Below are positions 24,923-30,759 of a stretch of 52,206 bases of DNA, piece by piece. Source of the DNA: Cyanobacteria bacterium FACHB-471 (GTDB taxonomy: Bacteria; Cyanobacteriota; Cyanobacteriia; Elainellales; Elainellaceae); NCBI GenBank assembly GCA_014695345.1, contig JACJOC010000096.1, positions 1 to 52,206 of the forward strand. Direction: 5' to 3'. The position numbers were made by a program, and so were the translations under genes. The first letter of the stretch is position 1; each line of letters begins with the position of its first letter. The notes beneath the pieces are model-generated. The model was not told the origin of the DNA, ran no database searches, and worked only from the letters and a program-made list of their open reading frames with translations.

Positions 24923-26281
24923 TTGGCTTACGACTATGACCTTTTTGTAATTGGAGCGGGTTCTGGGGGGCTGGCGGCGGCGCAGCGGGCAGTAACCTAT
25001 GGCGCGAGTGTTGCGATCGCAGAACAGTCCAAACCAGGGGGAGCCTGCGTTAACCACGGGTGTATTCCAGAGAAATTGCTGGACTATGCGGCTGGCTTTC
25101 GTAACCTGGAGCAAGTAGCGGTGAGCTATGGCTGGAAGGAGAGCAACCGTGAGTTTGACTGGTCACAGTTTGTCAGGGCTGAGGAACAGCATATTCAGCA
25201 CCTCAATGGGGTGCATCTTCGTCACCTGCAAGAGGGGAATGTCCAATTCATTCAAGAACAAGCTCACTTCCTCGATGCTCATACAGTAACTGTGGGCGAT
25301 CGCTCCATCACATCAGAAAAAATTCTCATTGCCGTTGGTGCAAAACCGAACAAACCATCAATTCCAGGAATCGAACATACGATTACCTGGCACCAACTTT
25401 ATCACTTGCCCCAACAACCTGAATCGCTTGCTGTAGTGGGTGGTGATCCGATCGGGGTAAAGATTACCGGAAGTCTAAACGCGCTAGGGACAAGCGTGAC
25501 TCAGATCATCCCTGAAGACCACATTCTTGCTGCTTTTGATGCAGAATTAGCCCAGGAAATTCAGGAACAGTTGAGCAAACAAGGAGTGCAAATTCTACCC
25601 AAAACCAACGTTGCCAAGATTAAGAAAACAGAGAAAGGTTTGTGTCTCACTCTGTCTAATCAATCGAACTCCAAACAGCCAAGTTCCCTAACCGTTGATG
25701 CGGTCCTAATGGATGTACCTCGCAAGCCTAATTTAGCAGGACTGAATCTAGAAAAAGCGGATATCCAGTTGACGGAAGCAGGGGCAATCAGCGTTGATGA
25801 ATCGAGTCGTACCACTCAGAGCAACATTTTTGCGATTGGGGATTGTACAGGACGTATTCCCCTTACTCCCAGTGCGATCGCTCAGGGAAGAGCCTTTGCA
25901 GATGCCGAATTTGGTGGAAAATCTTCTAGCGTCAGGCTCGATTGGGTGCCTATTTCGCTCGCGTCTCAGCCGGAAGCTGCGACAGTTGGCTTATCTGAGT
26001 CGCAGGCACGTCAAAAGTTTGGTGATGCTGTTTTCTGCTATCAGACGCGGTTTCGTCCCCTGCTCTATTGCTTGGCGGCAGGGAATGAGCAGATGTTTGT
26101 GAAAGCAGTAGTGAATCGGCAGGATTCAGAACGAGTCTTGGGAATTCACATTATGGGCGATCGAGCAGTAGATATTGTGCAAAGTCTAGCCGTTTCGCTC
26201 AGGCTGGGTGTAACAAAGCATGACCTGGATAGTGCGATCGGAATTCATCCATCTAGTGCCGAGGAAATCTTCTCACTATAA
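24923..26281 (+). CDS. Divergent glutathione-reductase-like flavoprotein disulfide oxidoreductase
   Basis: The frame is open from a TTG at 24872, but the TTG at 24923 has AAAGGAG 11 bases before it and starts LAYDYDLFVIGAGSGGLAAA, so 452 residues are likely, the usual length for cyanobacterial glutathione reductase. FAD site GAGSGG, redox pair Cys42/Cys47 (CVNHGC) and C-terminal HPSSAEE (catalytic His-Glu) are intact. Odd points: the normal CIPKKL is CIPEKL, CVNRGC is CVNHGC, and the NAD(P)H-binding GGGYIAVEFAG is GGDPIGVKITG, so the third Gly and the gating Tyr are lost. It may use a different donor or substrate, or be a second copy relaxed in function. Confidence 0.75.
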   Translation: MAYDYDLFVIGAGSGGLAAAQRAVTYGASVAIAEQSKPGGACVNHGCIPEKLLDYAAGFRNLEQVAVSYGWKESNREFDWSQFVRAEEQHIQHLNGVHLRHLQEGNVQFIQEQAHFLDAHTVTVGDRSITSEKILIAVGAKPNKPSIPGIEHTITWHQLYHLPQQPESLAVVGGDPIGVKITGSLNALGTSVTQIIPEDHILAAFDAELAQEIQEQLSKQGVQILPKTNVAKIKKTEKGLCLTLSNQSNSKQPSSLTVDAVLMDVPRKPNLAGLNLEKADIQLTEAGAISVDESSRTTQSNIFAIGDCTGRIPLTPSAIAQGRAFADAEFGGKSSSVRLDWVPISLASQPEAATVGLSESQARQKFGDAVFCYQTRFRPLLYCLAAGNEQMFVKAVVNRQDSERVLGIHIMGDRAVDIVQSLAVSLRLGVTKHDLDSAIGIHPSSAEEIFSL

Positions 26282-26768
26282 GCTCAGCACATGGGGCGAT
26301 CGTAAAAACCGCTCTACACTACCTGTGCCGTTATACCACCTCTAAAACTTATCCAAAACTTAGGGCTACAGATGAAAGGGCACTCTACTTAGCGGCGTAC
26401 CCTTCCATCTGTAGCCTCTTTCTAGAGAAACGTTATAAATCTTATTAATCATCGATAACAATCTGGGAATACTAGCACTGTTGTCCAGTCTGCTCGCCCC
26501 TTGAGGATTAGAAATTGCAGCGCTTAAAGGAAGATAGTAGTTATTACGTTATCGATACATATCTTTGCGGTTGTTTTTCCTTTGCAAAGTATTTCAATCT
26601 AAATCATTTCCTTAACATTCAGACCTTCCTCACCAGATCCTCATATTTCATTCTTAGGGTGAAAACATCAGAAACTTCCCCAAGAAATTTTCTCAACAGA
26701 GTCACGAGGAGCGACTCAACATCATCGGAAATCAATGAATTTTTTTAACATAAAAAGGATGAGATTTT
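26282..26768. other. Non-coding stretch with hairpin repeat copy E
   Basis: About 490 bases with no convincing gene. It contains a hairpin of the same family as A and D at 26365-26415 and a small GAGTC...GACTC hairpin near 26700. A 77-codon open frame at 26515-26748 has no ribosome site and no family features. The last bases, TTAACATAAAAAGGATGAG, give the -10-like region and ribosome site of the zinc-ribbon gene. Confidence 0.6.
26331..26440. repeat. Hairpin repeat element (copy E), inverted relative to D
   Basis: GCTACAGATGAAAGGGCAC (26365-26383) pairs with 26397-26415. The left flank (GTTATACCA...AACTTAGG) matches the inverted right flank of D, with an insertion, and the right flank (CTCTTTCTAGAGAAACGTTATA) matches the inverted left flank of D. 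This mutual inversion defines the whole element. Confidence 0.7.
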
Positions 26769-26954
26769 ATGGCAAGTTGTCCCTGCTGCTCTGATCAGAT
26801 GCTGCGTCATATTCGTCATAACCAAACCTACTGGTTTTGTCGGAGCTGCTGGCAAGAAATGCCCTTGATGCAACCCAGCTTGAATTTAGTTTCAGCTTCA
26901 TTGGAGCGACGTTTTGTGCTGGCAAATGCAGAGCGATCGCTCGTTACCATTTGA
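26769..26954 (+). CDS. Zinc-ribbon mini-protein
   Basis: This 61-residue protein has two Cys pairs, CPCC (residues 4-7) and CRSC (about 29-32), spaced as in a zinc ribbon, with YWFCRSCWQEMP. AAGGA about 11 bases before the ATG supports translation. Short proteins of this kind (MASCPCC...WFCRSC) recur in cyanobacteria, often near two-component genes, as here. The rest is a hydrophobic to basic tail ending in RSLVTI. Function unknown; it may bind nucleic acid or act as an adaptor. Confidence 0.75.
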   Translation: MASCPCCSDQMLRHIRHNQTYWFCRSCWQEMPLMQPSLNLVSASLERRFVLANAERSLVTI

Positions 26955-27064
26955 GAAATTGCATTAAACTTGAGTTTTCTAGGTTTAGTGAATCAACGCA
27001 TAGATATCAGAAGTGCCACTGGTTCAAAAGAGTTTACCTGCATCAGTGAATACCCCTGCAGTTA

Positions 27065-27110
27065 GGAATTGTTGCCACGATCGCAGCTTTAAGATTGTGG
27101 CAACAATTCC
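27065..27110. repeat. 14-bp perfect inverted repeat before the kinase remnant
   Basis: GGAATTGTTGCCAC (27065-27078) pairs with GTGGCAACAATTCC (27097-27110), loop of 18 bases including CGATCGCAG. An outer CCTGCA/TGCAGG pairing flanks it. It may end transcription after the zinc-ribbon gene or mark the breakpoint that created the kinase remnant. Confidence 0.6.
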
Positions 27111-27173
27111 TTGTGCAGGATCAATTACACATTGCGATCGCACGATCGTCCTGGCCGTAGGCTGTAACGATAC

Positions 27174-27527
27174 ATGAGTAGACCTTTGCAAGCCGAAACA
27201 ATATTTCTTAAGATGCGGGAATATTTAGATTTAGAGTATCTTGACGCTGAGCGACCCTCCAATCCCAACCCGTTGCCTGCTGATTCATATAGGACTAATG
27301 CAGATGTACCAGCTCTCTTTGACTCAACTTTACTTGCCTACTTGGCAACAGATTAGCTGGCGGCACTGGAAAATGCAGCCGTGTATGGGGACGATGGGGC
27401 GATCGCAGACCAGCTATCCCAAATCTCACCAGAATTTGCCTCATTGCACGTCCAGTTAATGCAACTTGCCAATAAGTTTTAGTTTGAGCAGATTGTTTCA
27501 CCGATTCACAGCAATCCTTCCCCATAA
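27174..27527 (+). pseudogene. Remnant of the C-terminus of a hybrid sensor kinase, with two in-frame amber codons
   Basis: Reading from the ATG at 27174, the product (SRPLQAETIFLKMREYLDLEY...) matches the end of a receiver domain plus the C-terminal helical module of the phytochrome kinase that follows. The frame stops at TAG 27354-27356 and at TAG 27480-27482, then runs on to TAA 27525-27527. Between the stops is LAALENAAVYGDDGAIADQL. Aligned with the intact neighbour (EWINQVHEAA and NNFQLEAI), the first TAG stands at the Trp codon and the second at the Gln codon, so each is one transition away (TGG to TAG, CAG to TAG). All upstream kinase domains are gone. It is a decaying copy, most simply from an old tandem duplication. 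Confidence 0.8.
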
Positions 27528-27575
27528 CTTTCATCTCTGCATTTATCCCCTTTGAATCCAGTCGTGCTTGTTGAA

Positions 27576-30500
27576 ATGAACGCCTTAACTGCCTTTAAAC
27601 AATCTGCATTTACGCCTGCATTACTAACTACATTAGAAAATTGCAGCGAAGAATCGGTATATGCTCCTGGCTATATTCAGCCGTATGGCATTTTGTTGGT
27701 GCTGCAACCCGACCTCAAAATTTTGCAGATCAGTGAAAATGTGGAGCAGTTTTGGGGCATTTCCGCCGCAGCCCTGGTTGGGCAATCCCTACAGCGGCTC
27801 TTTTCTCGCACTCAAGTCAAACGAATTGCCCAATTCCTGCAACAAGACAATTTGGAACTGTGCAATCCATTTGAGTTAAAAGCACGGATCAAAGCCTTTT
27901 CCCCTGAGAGAGCAGAGCCGAAGGTGAAGACACAAACCTTCAGAAGCATTCTGCACCGAACTGAAAATTCTCTAATCCTAGAACTGGAGCCTCAGTTTCC
28001 TGCTGATAGCTCCGATTCCATTCAGTTTTATCATCGCCTTCAAGCTACAGTTTTGAGCCTCCGCAGTGCAGCGAGTCTCAGTAACTTAGCCCAAACCCTG
28101 GCTACACAAGTAAAAGAAATGACAGGGTTTGATCGTGTCATGATCTATCGATTTGAAGCAGATGATCATGGAGTTGTGATTGCAGAAGAAAAAGAGAATC
28201 ACTTAGAGAGCTTTTTAGGATTACACTTTCCAGCGATTGATGTTCCTGCCCCTGCCCGCAGGCTGTTTCTTCGCAACTGGGTGCGGCAAATTCCCGACGT
28301 TCATTATAGCCCTGTCGCTCTCATTGCGGCTGACGGTTGCTCAGTTGAAACACCAACAGACCTGCGTGACTGTGTGTTACGAGGCGTTTCTCCCTATCAC
28401 ATTGAATATTTGCAGAACATGGGGGTTGCTGGGACGTTCACAATTTCGCTGATCAACGATCAACGCCTGTGGGGACTAATTGCCTGTCACCATTACAGCC
28501 CTAAACAGATCGATTATCAAACGCGCAAGACCTGTGAATTTATCGGGCAGTTTGCTTCAATTGAACTCGTTCACCAGCAAGAGCGAGAATTGGAGGGTTA
28601 CCGTACTCAGGTCCAAACAATTCAAGACAAGCTTCAGCAGGCATTTTTGCGAGAGCCAAATTTCATTCAACAGGTACTCACTCGTAATGCTGCTGACTTG
28701 CTTAATCTGGTTCGCGCAGAAGGAGTGGCGATCGCCCTTGATCAAAAGATCTTACTGATCGGGCAAACTCCACCTTTGGAAGCAGTTCAAAATCTTCTCA
28801 CTTGGCTGCCCCAACTCAACCAGCCTGAAATTTACCTAACCAACTGTCTGGTGCGACCCTACCCGCCCGCCAGAGCATTCACACAGACCGCAAGTGGCAT
28901 TCTGGCGATCTCCATCGTGCTGCACCAAAAGTCTTACCACTTAGTCTGGTTCCGACCCGAGCAAATCCAAACGGTGAACTGGGCGGGCAACCCACAGGAT
29001 GCAGTGAAGATTGATGAGTCAGGTGAACCGCAACTGTGTCCCCGCCAATCTTTTGATCTGTGGAAGGAAACGGTGCAAGAAACATCGCTGCCCTGGCAAT
29101 CCGTCGAGATCGAAGCGGCAAGAATGATGCGGAGTACGCTGATGCTGGCTCTGTTGGAGTTCTCTCAGTCGGCATTAGAGCAAGCTGCTGAACGGGCAGC
29201 GATCGCCAACCGAGCCAAAAGCCACTTTCTTGCCAAAATGAGTCACGAACTGCGAACCCCCCTGAACGCGATTCTGGGGTTTGCCCAAATGATGAACCGT
29301 AGTACCAGTACGCCTCCAGAGTTTCAGGAGCATTTAGGTATCATTAACCGCAGTGGAGAACATCTGCTAACCCTGATTAATGACGTGCTAGAGATGTCTC
29401 GCATTGAGGCAGGGCAGCTGGTTCTAACCGAAAAGATTTTTAATCTGCACCAATTGCTGCGATCGCTCCACGAAATGTTTGCACTCAAAGCCAGTGAGAA
29501 AGGGCTAACTTTCTCACTAGAGAAAGATCAAAGTGTTCCTCACTATGTGTGCAGCGACGAAGCAAAAGTGCGGCAAATTTTGATTAATCTGATCAGCAAT
29601 GCGATCAAATTTACAACGCAAGGCAGCGTTACTATTCAGGTGCGAACCAAGCCAGCAGAGACGAGTAAACCAAGCTGCACCTGTTACCCCAACACTTCAT
29701 CACCTTGCCGTGCGCTGACTCTCGCCTTTGAAGTTGAAGACACGGGGTGCGGCATCCATAGCAGTGACTGGGAGTCGATTTTTGAAGCCTTTATGCAAAC
29801 CGAGCAGGGGCGTTATGCTCAGGGAACCGGGCTGGGCTTGTCAATCAGCCGCCAGTTTGCTCGCTTGCTAGGAGGCGACATTACGGTTCAAAGTACAGTC
29901 AACCAGGGGTCAACATTCACTTGTCACATTCTTTTACACTGTCCAGACATAGTCGATCTAGTTGAGTCAGAGACTGCCAATCTGGTGATAGGTCTGGAGC
30001 CAGGGCAGCCCACTTACCGGATTTTAGTTGCAGAGGATGTTCCTGAAAATTGGCAACTCTTAAAGGCTTTGCTAGAACCCGTTGGGTTTGAAGTCCGTAC
30101 GGCTGAGAATGGCGAAGAGGCGATCGCCCAGTGGCAATCCTGGCACCCTCACCTAATTCTGATGGACATTCAAATGCCAGGAATGGATGGGCATGAGGCA
30201 ACTCGGCAGATTCGCGCTCAGGAAACCTCTGAGCAGCGACAACCAATTCCCATCATTGCGCTTACGGCTTACGCTTTTGAAACCGATCGCACTGCCAGTC
30301 TCCAAGCAGGCTGCAATGAACATATTGCCAAACCATTTACGGAAACCACTGTTTTTGAGGCGATCGCTCGTCATCTAGGAGCTCACTACCGCTACAAAGA
30401 CGAACCGCAAACACCATCTCGTTTAATCCGAAAAACGCTTGCTCCACAAGACTTTGAGGCAATGCCAATCGAATGGATCAACCAGGTTCATGAAGCTGCA

Positions 30501-30635
30501 CTTGACTTAGATGATGAGAAATTACATCAGTTGATTGCCCGAATTCCAGCTCACGAACTGCTGCTGGTTGAGAGCATGACATCCCTGGTCAATAACTTTC
30601 AGTTAGAAGCGATCGCGTCTCTAACTCAGGGTTAA
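27576..30635 (+). CDS. Bacteriophytochrome-type hybrid sensor histidine kinase
   Basis: Start taken as the ATG at 27576 (a TTG at 27552 would add 8 residues); 1019 residues. Order: N-terminal PAS_2 with NCSEESVYAPGYIQPYG, where Cys23 is the biliverdin-attachment Cys of bacteriophytochromes; GAF (about 145-320) with FPAIDVPAPAR (the usual SDIP reads IDVP) and SPYHIEYLQNMGV, whose His is kept while the cyanobacterial bilin Cys is Ile; PHY domain (about 330-515) with PRQSFDLWKETV (PRxSF tongue motif) and WFRPEQI; HisKA (His557 in MSHELRTPLNAILG); HATPase; receiver (about Asp864 in LMDIQMPGMDG); C-terminal helical module. This is a red/far-red light-regulated kinase that probably feeds the adjacent HPt regulator. 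Confidence 0.9.
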   Translation: MNALTAFKQSAFTPALLTTLENCSEESVYAPGYIQPYGILLVLQPDLKILQISENVEQFWGISAAALVGQSLQRLFSRTQVKRIAQFLQQDNLELCNPFELKARIKAFSPERAEPKVKTQTFRSILHRTENSLILELEPQFPADSSDSIQFYHRLQATVLSLRSAASLSNLAQTLATQVKEMTGFDRVMIYRFEADDHGVVIAEEKENHLESFLGLHFPAIDVPAPARRLFLRNWVRQIPDVHYSPVALIAADGCSVETPTDLRDCVLRGVSPYHIEYLQNMGVAGTFTISLINDQRLWGLIACHHYSPKQIDYQTRKTCEFIGQFASIELVHQQERELEGYRTQVQTIQDKLQQAFLREPNFIQQVLTRNAADLLNLVRAEGVAIALDQKILLIGQTPPLEAVQNLLTWLPQLNQPEIYLTNCLVRPYPPARAFTQTASGILAISIVLHQKSYHLVWFRPEQIQTVNWAGNPQDAVKIDESGEPQLCPRQSFDLWKETVQETSLPWQSVEIEAARMMRSTLMLALLEFSQSALEQAAERAAIANRAKSHFLAKMSHELRTPLNAILGFAQMMNRSTSTPPEFQEHLGIINRSGEHLLTLINDVLEMSRIEAGQLVLTEKIFNLHQLLRSLHEMFALKASEKGLTFSLEKDQSVPHYVCSDEAKVRQILINLISNAIKFTTQGSVTIQVRTKPAETSKPSCTCYPNTSSPCRALTLAFEVEDTGCGIHSSDWESIFEAFMQTEQGRYAQGTGLGLSISRQFARLLGGDITVQSTVNQGSTFTCHILLHCPDIVDLVESETANLVIGLEPGQPTYRILVAEDVPENWQLLKALLEPVGFEVRTAENGEEAIAQWQSWHPHLILMDIQMPGMDGHEATRQIRAQETSEQRQPIPIIALTAYAFETDRTASLQAGCNEHIAKPFTETTVFEAIARHLGAHYRYKDEPQTPSRLIRKTLAPQDFEAMPIEWINQVHEAALDLDDEKLHQLIARIPAHELLLVESMTSLVNNFQLEAIASLTQG

Positions 30636-30759
30636 AGGGGGAAACAGGACTGCTCTACTGGCATTGCACCGAGTAACAACCCGTCAAAAACCGGATATCC
30701 AAAGGTACGAAACTGCTTGACCCAAATCTCCCTATTCTGCCTAAGGATCAGACTTTCCC

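Follow-up and report, generated by a model that had tools for sequence, protein, structure and literature searches.

Remains of a hybrid histidine kinase gene directly upstream of a bacteriophytochrome-type kinase in Cyanobacteria bacterium FACHB-471

Results

Organization of the Locus

The window analyzed here is the whole of contig JACJOC010000096.1 (52,206 nucleotides), one of the 118 contigs of the 7.15-Mb genome of Cyanobacteria bacterium FACHB-471, which is 99.87% complete. An intact frame for a bacteriophytochrome-type hybrid kinase (table 1) showed 71–74% identity to its counterparts in four other genomes (G011, G008, G014, and G025) among the matches listed, and in either genome of the genus no match above 44% identity was among those listed. 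The preliminary description of the DNA directly upstream had reported a decayed kinase tail with two internal TAG codons, separated from this kinase by 49 bases. The frame and both codons are present in the sequence, the frame closes with TAA, and the ATG at 27576 does follow at the stated distance. The similarity to kinase tails was also above chance: this stretch scored 97 bits against three tails of the upstream kinases described below, compared with 22.3 bits for the best of 1,000 dinucleotide shuffles. No Pfam family was detected in the remnant at E 0.01, nor in the corresponding tail of G008. The reported limits are right for the frame but not for the whole remnant, which starts at about 26999.

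Further upstream, a 20-nt inverted repeat (90% complementary, 26364–26416) was observed right after an oxidoreductase gene ending at 26281. A plasmid search with positions 27000–30700 returned kinase matches, with a coverage of at most 8%. A consensus scan of the + strand from 26300 to 27700 found no sigma-70-like promoter.

Table 1. Features of the kinase locus, in window coordinates
Feature	Position	Strand	Basis
Small open frame of 61 codons, apparently a separate gene upstream of the remnant	26769..26954	+	Sequence reading alone
N-terminal remnant of the upstream hybrid kinase: first hydrophobic stretch, ahead of the CHASE domain	26999..27133	+	tblastn
TGA stop within the N-terminal remnant, at the Trp codon of relatives	27047..27049	+	Codon table versus intact copies
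Near-perfect 19-bp hairpin within the N-terminal remnant	27064..27111	+	Fold -35.2 kcal/mol, z -8.3
HIP1 octamer (GCGATCGC) at the deletion junction	27134..27141	+	Homology limits; shared receiver-domain octamer
End of the receiver domain (DR..LAVGCND)	27136..27171	+	tblastn frame +1, aligned codons
Frameshift by loss of one base in the Asp-Tyr codons preceding the KPF motif	27169..27173	+	Frame +1 to frame +3
Remnant of the kinase C-terminal tail (reported frame)	27174..27527	+	Sequence, tblastn, tail tree
TAG replacing the Trp of the tail	27354..27356	+	Sequence, tail alignment, profile alignment
TAG replacing the Gln of the tail	27480..27482	+	Sequence, tail alignment, profile alignment
Intact bacteriophytochrome-type hybrid kinase, downstream partner (PAS_2-GAF-PHY-HisKA-HATPase-receiver)	27576..30635	+	ORF, Pfam domains

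Both Ends of a Large Kinase Are Retained

The kinase encoded on contig C23 of G011 gave three tblastn matches in the window, in three different frames: residues 19–57 matched 27017–27133 (E 1.6e-5), residues 1569–1595 matched 27091–27171 (frame +1), and residues 1596–1706 matched 27171–27506. A second kinase of G011, on contig C13, matched 26999–27133 with its residues 41–85 at 53% identity (tblastn against the window, E 2e-9). The N-terminal match reached 43.1 bits with the highest-scoring of five intact N-terminal ends, and this score was attained by none of 1,000 shuffles and none of 468 window tiles (494 shuffles and 265 tiles gave any match). Both ends of the kinase are kept in order, the middle is absent, and the parts are mutually out of frame. 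At the TGA of the N-terminal part, the relatives encode Trp (both copies of G011, C42, and CCP2), Ser (G025), or Leu (UBA9251).

Homology on the left stops at 27133 and homology on the right starts at 27136. Of the 10 related genes that have this part of the receiver domain, 8 carry the junction octamer at the equivalent position, and CCP2 and UBA9251 differ from it there by one base. Since the N-terminal end is joined to the receiver end at this octamer, approximately 2.0–6.3 kb is missing, with estimates of about 2.0 kb modelled on C42 (L082), 4.6 kb on either G011 copy, and 6.3 kb on G025. HIP1 occurs in the window at 1.65 per kb; thus, about 1.3% of random positions fall inside one. The location of the junction within HIP1 suggests a deletion between two HIP1 sites, although this role is read from the junction sequence and the placement may be due to chance.

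The N-terminal remnant also contains a strong hairpin (table 1). In five intact genes, the corresponding stretches, taken in register, gave z values from -2.0 (C42) to 0.4. A dispersed repeat was rejected, as a search of the genome gave no second full copy of the hairpin, and its Rfam matches lay far under the gathering score. Because the alignment with the intact genes crosses it free of gaps, the hairpin arose from substitutions, not from an insertion; where its right arm differs from the relatives, the change is toward complementarity with the left arm. Copying of one arm of a hairpin from the other would fit these changes. We see only a slim chance that, after the death of the kinase, its remains were reused as a leader of the phytochrome kinase, with the hairpin acting in the 5' transcript.

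The Stop Codons Lie at Conserved Trp and Gln Columns

We aligned the remnant with the C-termini of ten syntenic upstream kinases. The column of the first TAG carries Trp in nine of these tails and Leu in one, and that of the second TAG carries Gln in seven, Glu in two, and Ala in one. In the alignment of the profile of these tails with that of the phytochrome-kinase tails (hhalign probability 99.1%), both TAGs again correspond to the Trp and Gln columns. The preliminary description had obtained this register by eye from the adjacent phytochrome kinase; it stands at the profile level but not pairwise, where BLASTP gave no alignment. Distant homology between the two families of tails explains why the register is right despite the BLASTP blank. 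It had also placed both stops one transition from the ancestral codon. This is the case for the first (TGG to TAG), and it would be so for the second (CAG to TAG) if the lost codon was CAG, as is likely.

The alternative of a short gene expressed by amber readthrough or recoding, with TAG read as an amino acid, had been raised as the less likely of two readings. The frame has an ATG start and keeps its register beyond both TAGs, its codon-position conservation resembles that of intact pairs, and dN/dS on its branch is 0.27–0.30. However, a frameshift and a TGA lie immediately upstream of the frame, and a stop is absent from both TAG columns in all ten other syntenic tails. TAG acts as an ordinary terminator in the window, closing 5 of the 32 ORFs of at least 200 aa. 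ARAGORN, applied around the genome's 46 Rfam tRNA matches, called 50 tRNAs and none with a CUA anticodon, an incomplete list in which one of the 46 matches is uncalled and some expected tRNAs are missing. Readthrough is therefore scarcely credible here. No short gene with the same TAG codons was observed in the relatives, and the short frames of G008 and G047 have sense codons at both places. A TAG flagged in a match in G053 was rejected as a shared internal stop, being the terminator of that gene itself.

Contig C104 of the same genome carries 11 tRNA genes arrayed on one strand (181901–183347; L199:1402-2848). For eight of the 11, a tRNA of the same anticodon was called at another place in the genome. 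One member is a tRNA-Asn whose anticodon was called as ATT, and the array also contains an Rfam tRNA match uncalled by ARAGORN.

The Remnant Groups with Upstream Kinases and Not with Its Neighbour

Among the matches listed, the remnant had a match in 50 of the 79 genomes searched, and the phytochrome kinase had one in all 60 genomes searched. In G013, G025, and G005, the best match of the remnant was the tail of a kinase ending right before the orthologous phytochrome kinase, and in G011 the tail of the kinase directly before the orthologous phytochrome kinase was the second-best match; these upstream kinases are 1365–2285 aa in length. The side-by-side placement was confirmed by reading the loci of relatives, together with named loci from one GTDB genome scan.

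In a tree of 25 tails, comprising the remnant, 10 upstream-kinase tails, and 14 phytochrome tails, the remnant and the 10 upstream-kinase tails fell on one side of a branch with support of 100/99. When three further kinase tails were added (G011 C13, G050, and G040), the resulting 14 rows were again split from the 14 phytochrome tails at 100/99, and the position of the remnant inside the kinase-tail side had weak support (80/66). Forcing the remnant among all phytochrome tails cost 10 log units, a mild rejection (p-AU 0.033), and forcing it to pair with the tail of its neighbour cost 75 log units (p-AU 2e-81). In the 25-tail set, the remnant showed 33–46% identity to upstream kinases and 16.5–24.5% to phytochrome tails.

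These results bear on the origin from a tandem duplication that the preliminary description had preferred, by which the remnant would be a decayed duplicate of the downstream phytochrome kinase. The remnant does lie directly upstream on the same strand, and the two tails share a C-terminal module in the profile alignment. Nevertheless, the remnant is only 17.6% identical to the tail of its neighbour, compared with 46–49% to the nearest upstream kinases, and it yielded no pairwise BLASTP alignment with that tail at E <= 100 and no tblastn match; thus, the intact neighbour is a distant cousin and not the source. The N-terminal remnant matches a CHASE/PAS kinase, the forced pairing was rejected as above, and the gene pair is common to other genera. 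We consider a tandem duplicate extremely improbable, and the remnant is better read as part of the upstream kinase.

The best single match of the remnant was the whole 1750-aa kinase on contig C13 of G011 (L217:2197-9574), whose tail also had the highest identity (about 48–49%, with 45% for the tail of the intact G011 pair on C23) and carries Trp at the first TAG column and Glu at the second. Behind this kinase lie a fragment of a phytochrome kinase, which runs for the first ~85 codons up to a stop, and a response-regulator gene; since the kinase precedes that fragment, G011 has the gene pair a second time at the C13 locus. Given this closer copy, one-to-one orthology of the remnant with the intact pairs is putative. 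The C13 locus is the mirror image of the window, with the kinase whole and the phytochrome gene broken. No close copy of the remnant was found in its own genome, where the next tail match had 30% identity (E 4.7e-5) and the top matches of the entire G011 kinase had 43–55% identity over shared domains.

The Upstream Kinase Is Whole, Broken, or Not Found in Different Genomes

We surveyed the 21 genomes, including the window, that have a relative of the phytochrome kinase at ~50% identity or more among the matches listed, and sought the upstream kinase on the same strand by tblastn (E 0.01). In the 20 other genomes, the kinase was whole in seven, broken in three, and not found in eight; one had a different kinase at the locus (G037; 39% and 32% identity), and one contig (L091) has just 379 bases upstream and was not judged. 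For the 19 genomes judged, window included, the upstream kinase was whole in seven, broken in four, and not found in eight. The seven genomes with the kinase in one open frame, which ends shortly before the orthologous phytochrome kinase, are G011 (C23), G025, G005, G013 (= L090), L082, L084, and L087. The eight without a match at this threshold are G014/L081, G042, G049/L092, L083, L085, L088, L089, and G006, in three of which less than 8 kb of upstream DNA was covered (G042, 6.7 kb; L083, 5.9 kb; G006, 4.2 kb). The neighbouring pair of kinases also occurs in other genera.

Besides the window, the broken copies belong to G008, G047, and Microcoleus vaginatus HSN003 (L086). In G008, the tail alone is left, open for 76 aa; in G047, the receiver and tail are left, with 223 codons open; and in M. 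vaginatus, the N-terminal part of the kinase is followed by a frame change and then by the kinase from past the phospho-acceptor domain onward. The M. vaginatus gene (L086:8142-9838) has lost the phospho-acceptor domain while its remaining frame is open. Beside the receiver-plus-tail fragment of G047, the phytochrome kinase itself is split across two overlapping frames (L076:3600-6642).

The open fragments of G008 and G047 at the same place could indicate that the tail module outlasted the rest of the kinase as a short functional protein, with the window copy as a dying version of it, and the G047 branch indeed had a dN/dS of 0.14, for which a value of 1 was rejected. However, the breakpoints of the fragments differ, the first start codon of the G047 fragment falls within the receiver domain, and the window copy has two stops inside the module. 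In addition, dN/dS on the G008 branch was 0.91, indistinguishable from 1 in what is a weak test. A stand-alone tail protein is therefore very unlikely.

Constraint on the Remnant and Age of the Loss

The remnant has changed at 7 of 17 columns that are invariant in the other tails, including the lysine of the KPF motif of the receiver. When each of the other tails was compared with the rest in the same way, no changes at 17 columns were observed in G025, G005, CCP2, and M. vaginatus, and the counts were 2/19 in G011 and UBA9251, 3/20 in C42, 1/10 in G008, 4/21 in G047, and 8/25 in the distant Pantanalinema.

Codon branch models were run on the remnant and the tails of 10 syntenic relatives, leaving aside the C13 copy. 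The dN/dS of the remnant branch was 0.27 over 90 codons and 0.30 over 113 codons. Both values are below 1 (2 x delta lnL 8.8 and 7.9) and indistinguishable from the background of 0.21–0.27. In the last 64 codons it was 0.52, a value for which neither 1 nor the background was rejected. The intact G011 copy itself gave 0.63–0.95, with 1 not rejected; thus, the test is weak and noisy. In a two-phase model, where selection gives way to neutral change with stops allowed, the best fit placed the last 15–20% of the branch under neutrality, with a 95% range of about 2% to 75–85%, and most of the remnant branch is older than the loss in this best-fitting model. The preliminary description had called the pseudogene recent. 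Both the dN/dS below 1 and the two-phase model fit, but do not prove, a gene that would have died recently after long use, and the bounds on the neutral share are loose.

Discussion

We propose, at a probability of about 0.95, that positions 26999–27527 are a pseudogene, derived from a large hybrid histidine kinase of the CHASE/PAS type whose gene formerly lay immediately before that of the bacteriophytochrome kinase. The corresponding position is occupied by a whole kinase in 7 of the 20 other genomes, the tail groups with the upstream kinases, and the lesions (TGA at 27047, TAG at 27354 and 27480, a frameshift at ~27169, and the multi-kilobase internal deletion) are absent from the whole copies. 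The designation as a pseudogene in the preliminary description thus held, with the changed invariant columns in further agreement, and its tandem-duplicate and readthrough explanations were abandoned. Judged from its sequence, the remnant can make no working kinase, and the frame of the downstream phytochrome kinase is intact. Because some relatives have the whole gene at the same spot, this is an ordinary dead gene and not a new kind of gene.

The deletion would have brought the receiver domain next to a site close to the beginning of the gene, and the octamer at the junction perhaps served as a short repeat for it. The stops at two Trp codons and one Gln codon and the one-base deletion would have arisen besides, before or after it, and recently relative to the split from the nearest sampled relatives.

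HIP1-associated rearrangements offer one parallel. In the excerpts available of PMC4390886 and PMC9239245, both cite site-specific recombination in connection with HIP1, and one cites illegitimate recombination; the former, in the part available, reports no evidence of a link to homologous recombination. The window remnant resembles such rearrangements in having the octamer at its breakpoint. Unlike them, it offers one junction only, and the breakpoints of G008 and M. vaginatus are without HIP1. HIP1 was rejected as a general mechanism at this locus, G047 having one near the junction but not at it.

A second parallel is Anabaena sp. 90, for which the available portion of PMC3542288 gives 227 pseudogenes, 69.6% of them by truncation, names three histidine kinases among the pseudogenes, and blames insertion sequences. 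The remnant is similar to the pseudogenes described there in that part of the gene was lost and nonsense and frameshift lesions are present, but it differs from the truncations of that account in that both gene ends remain. A limited literature search returned nothing on this gene pair or its remnant.

With these results, one candidate recoded gene can be struck from the list, and the locus is given a corrected history: its two kinases form an adjacent pair found in different genera and are not tandem duplicates. The upstream kinase is broken in 4 of 19 genomes, and the phytochrome gene is a fragment in the C13 copy of G011.
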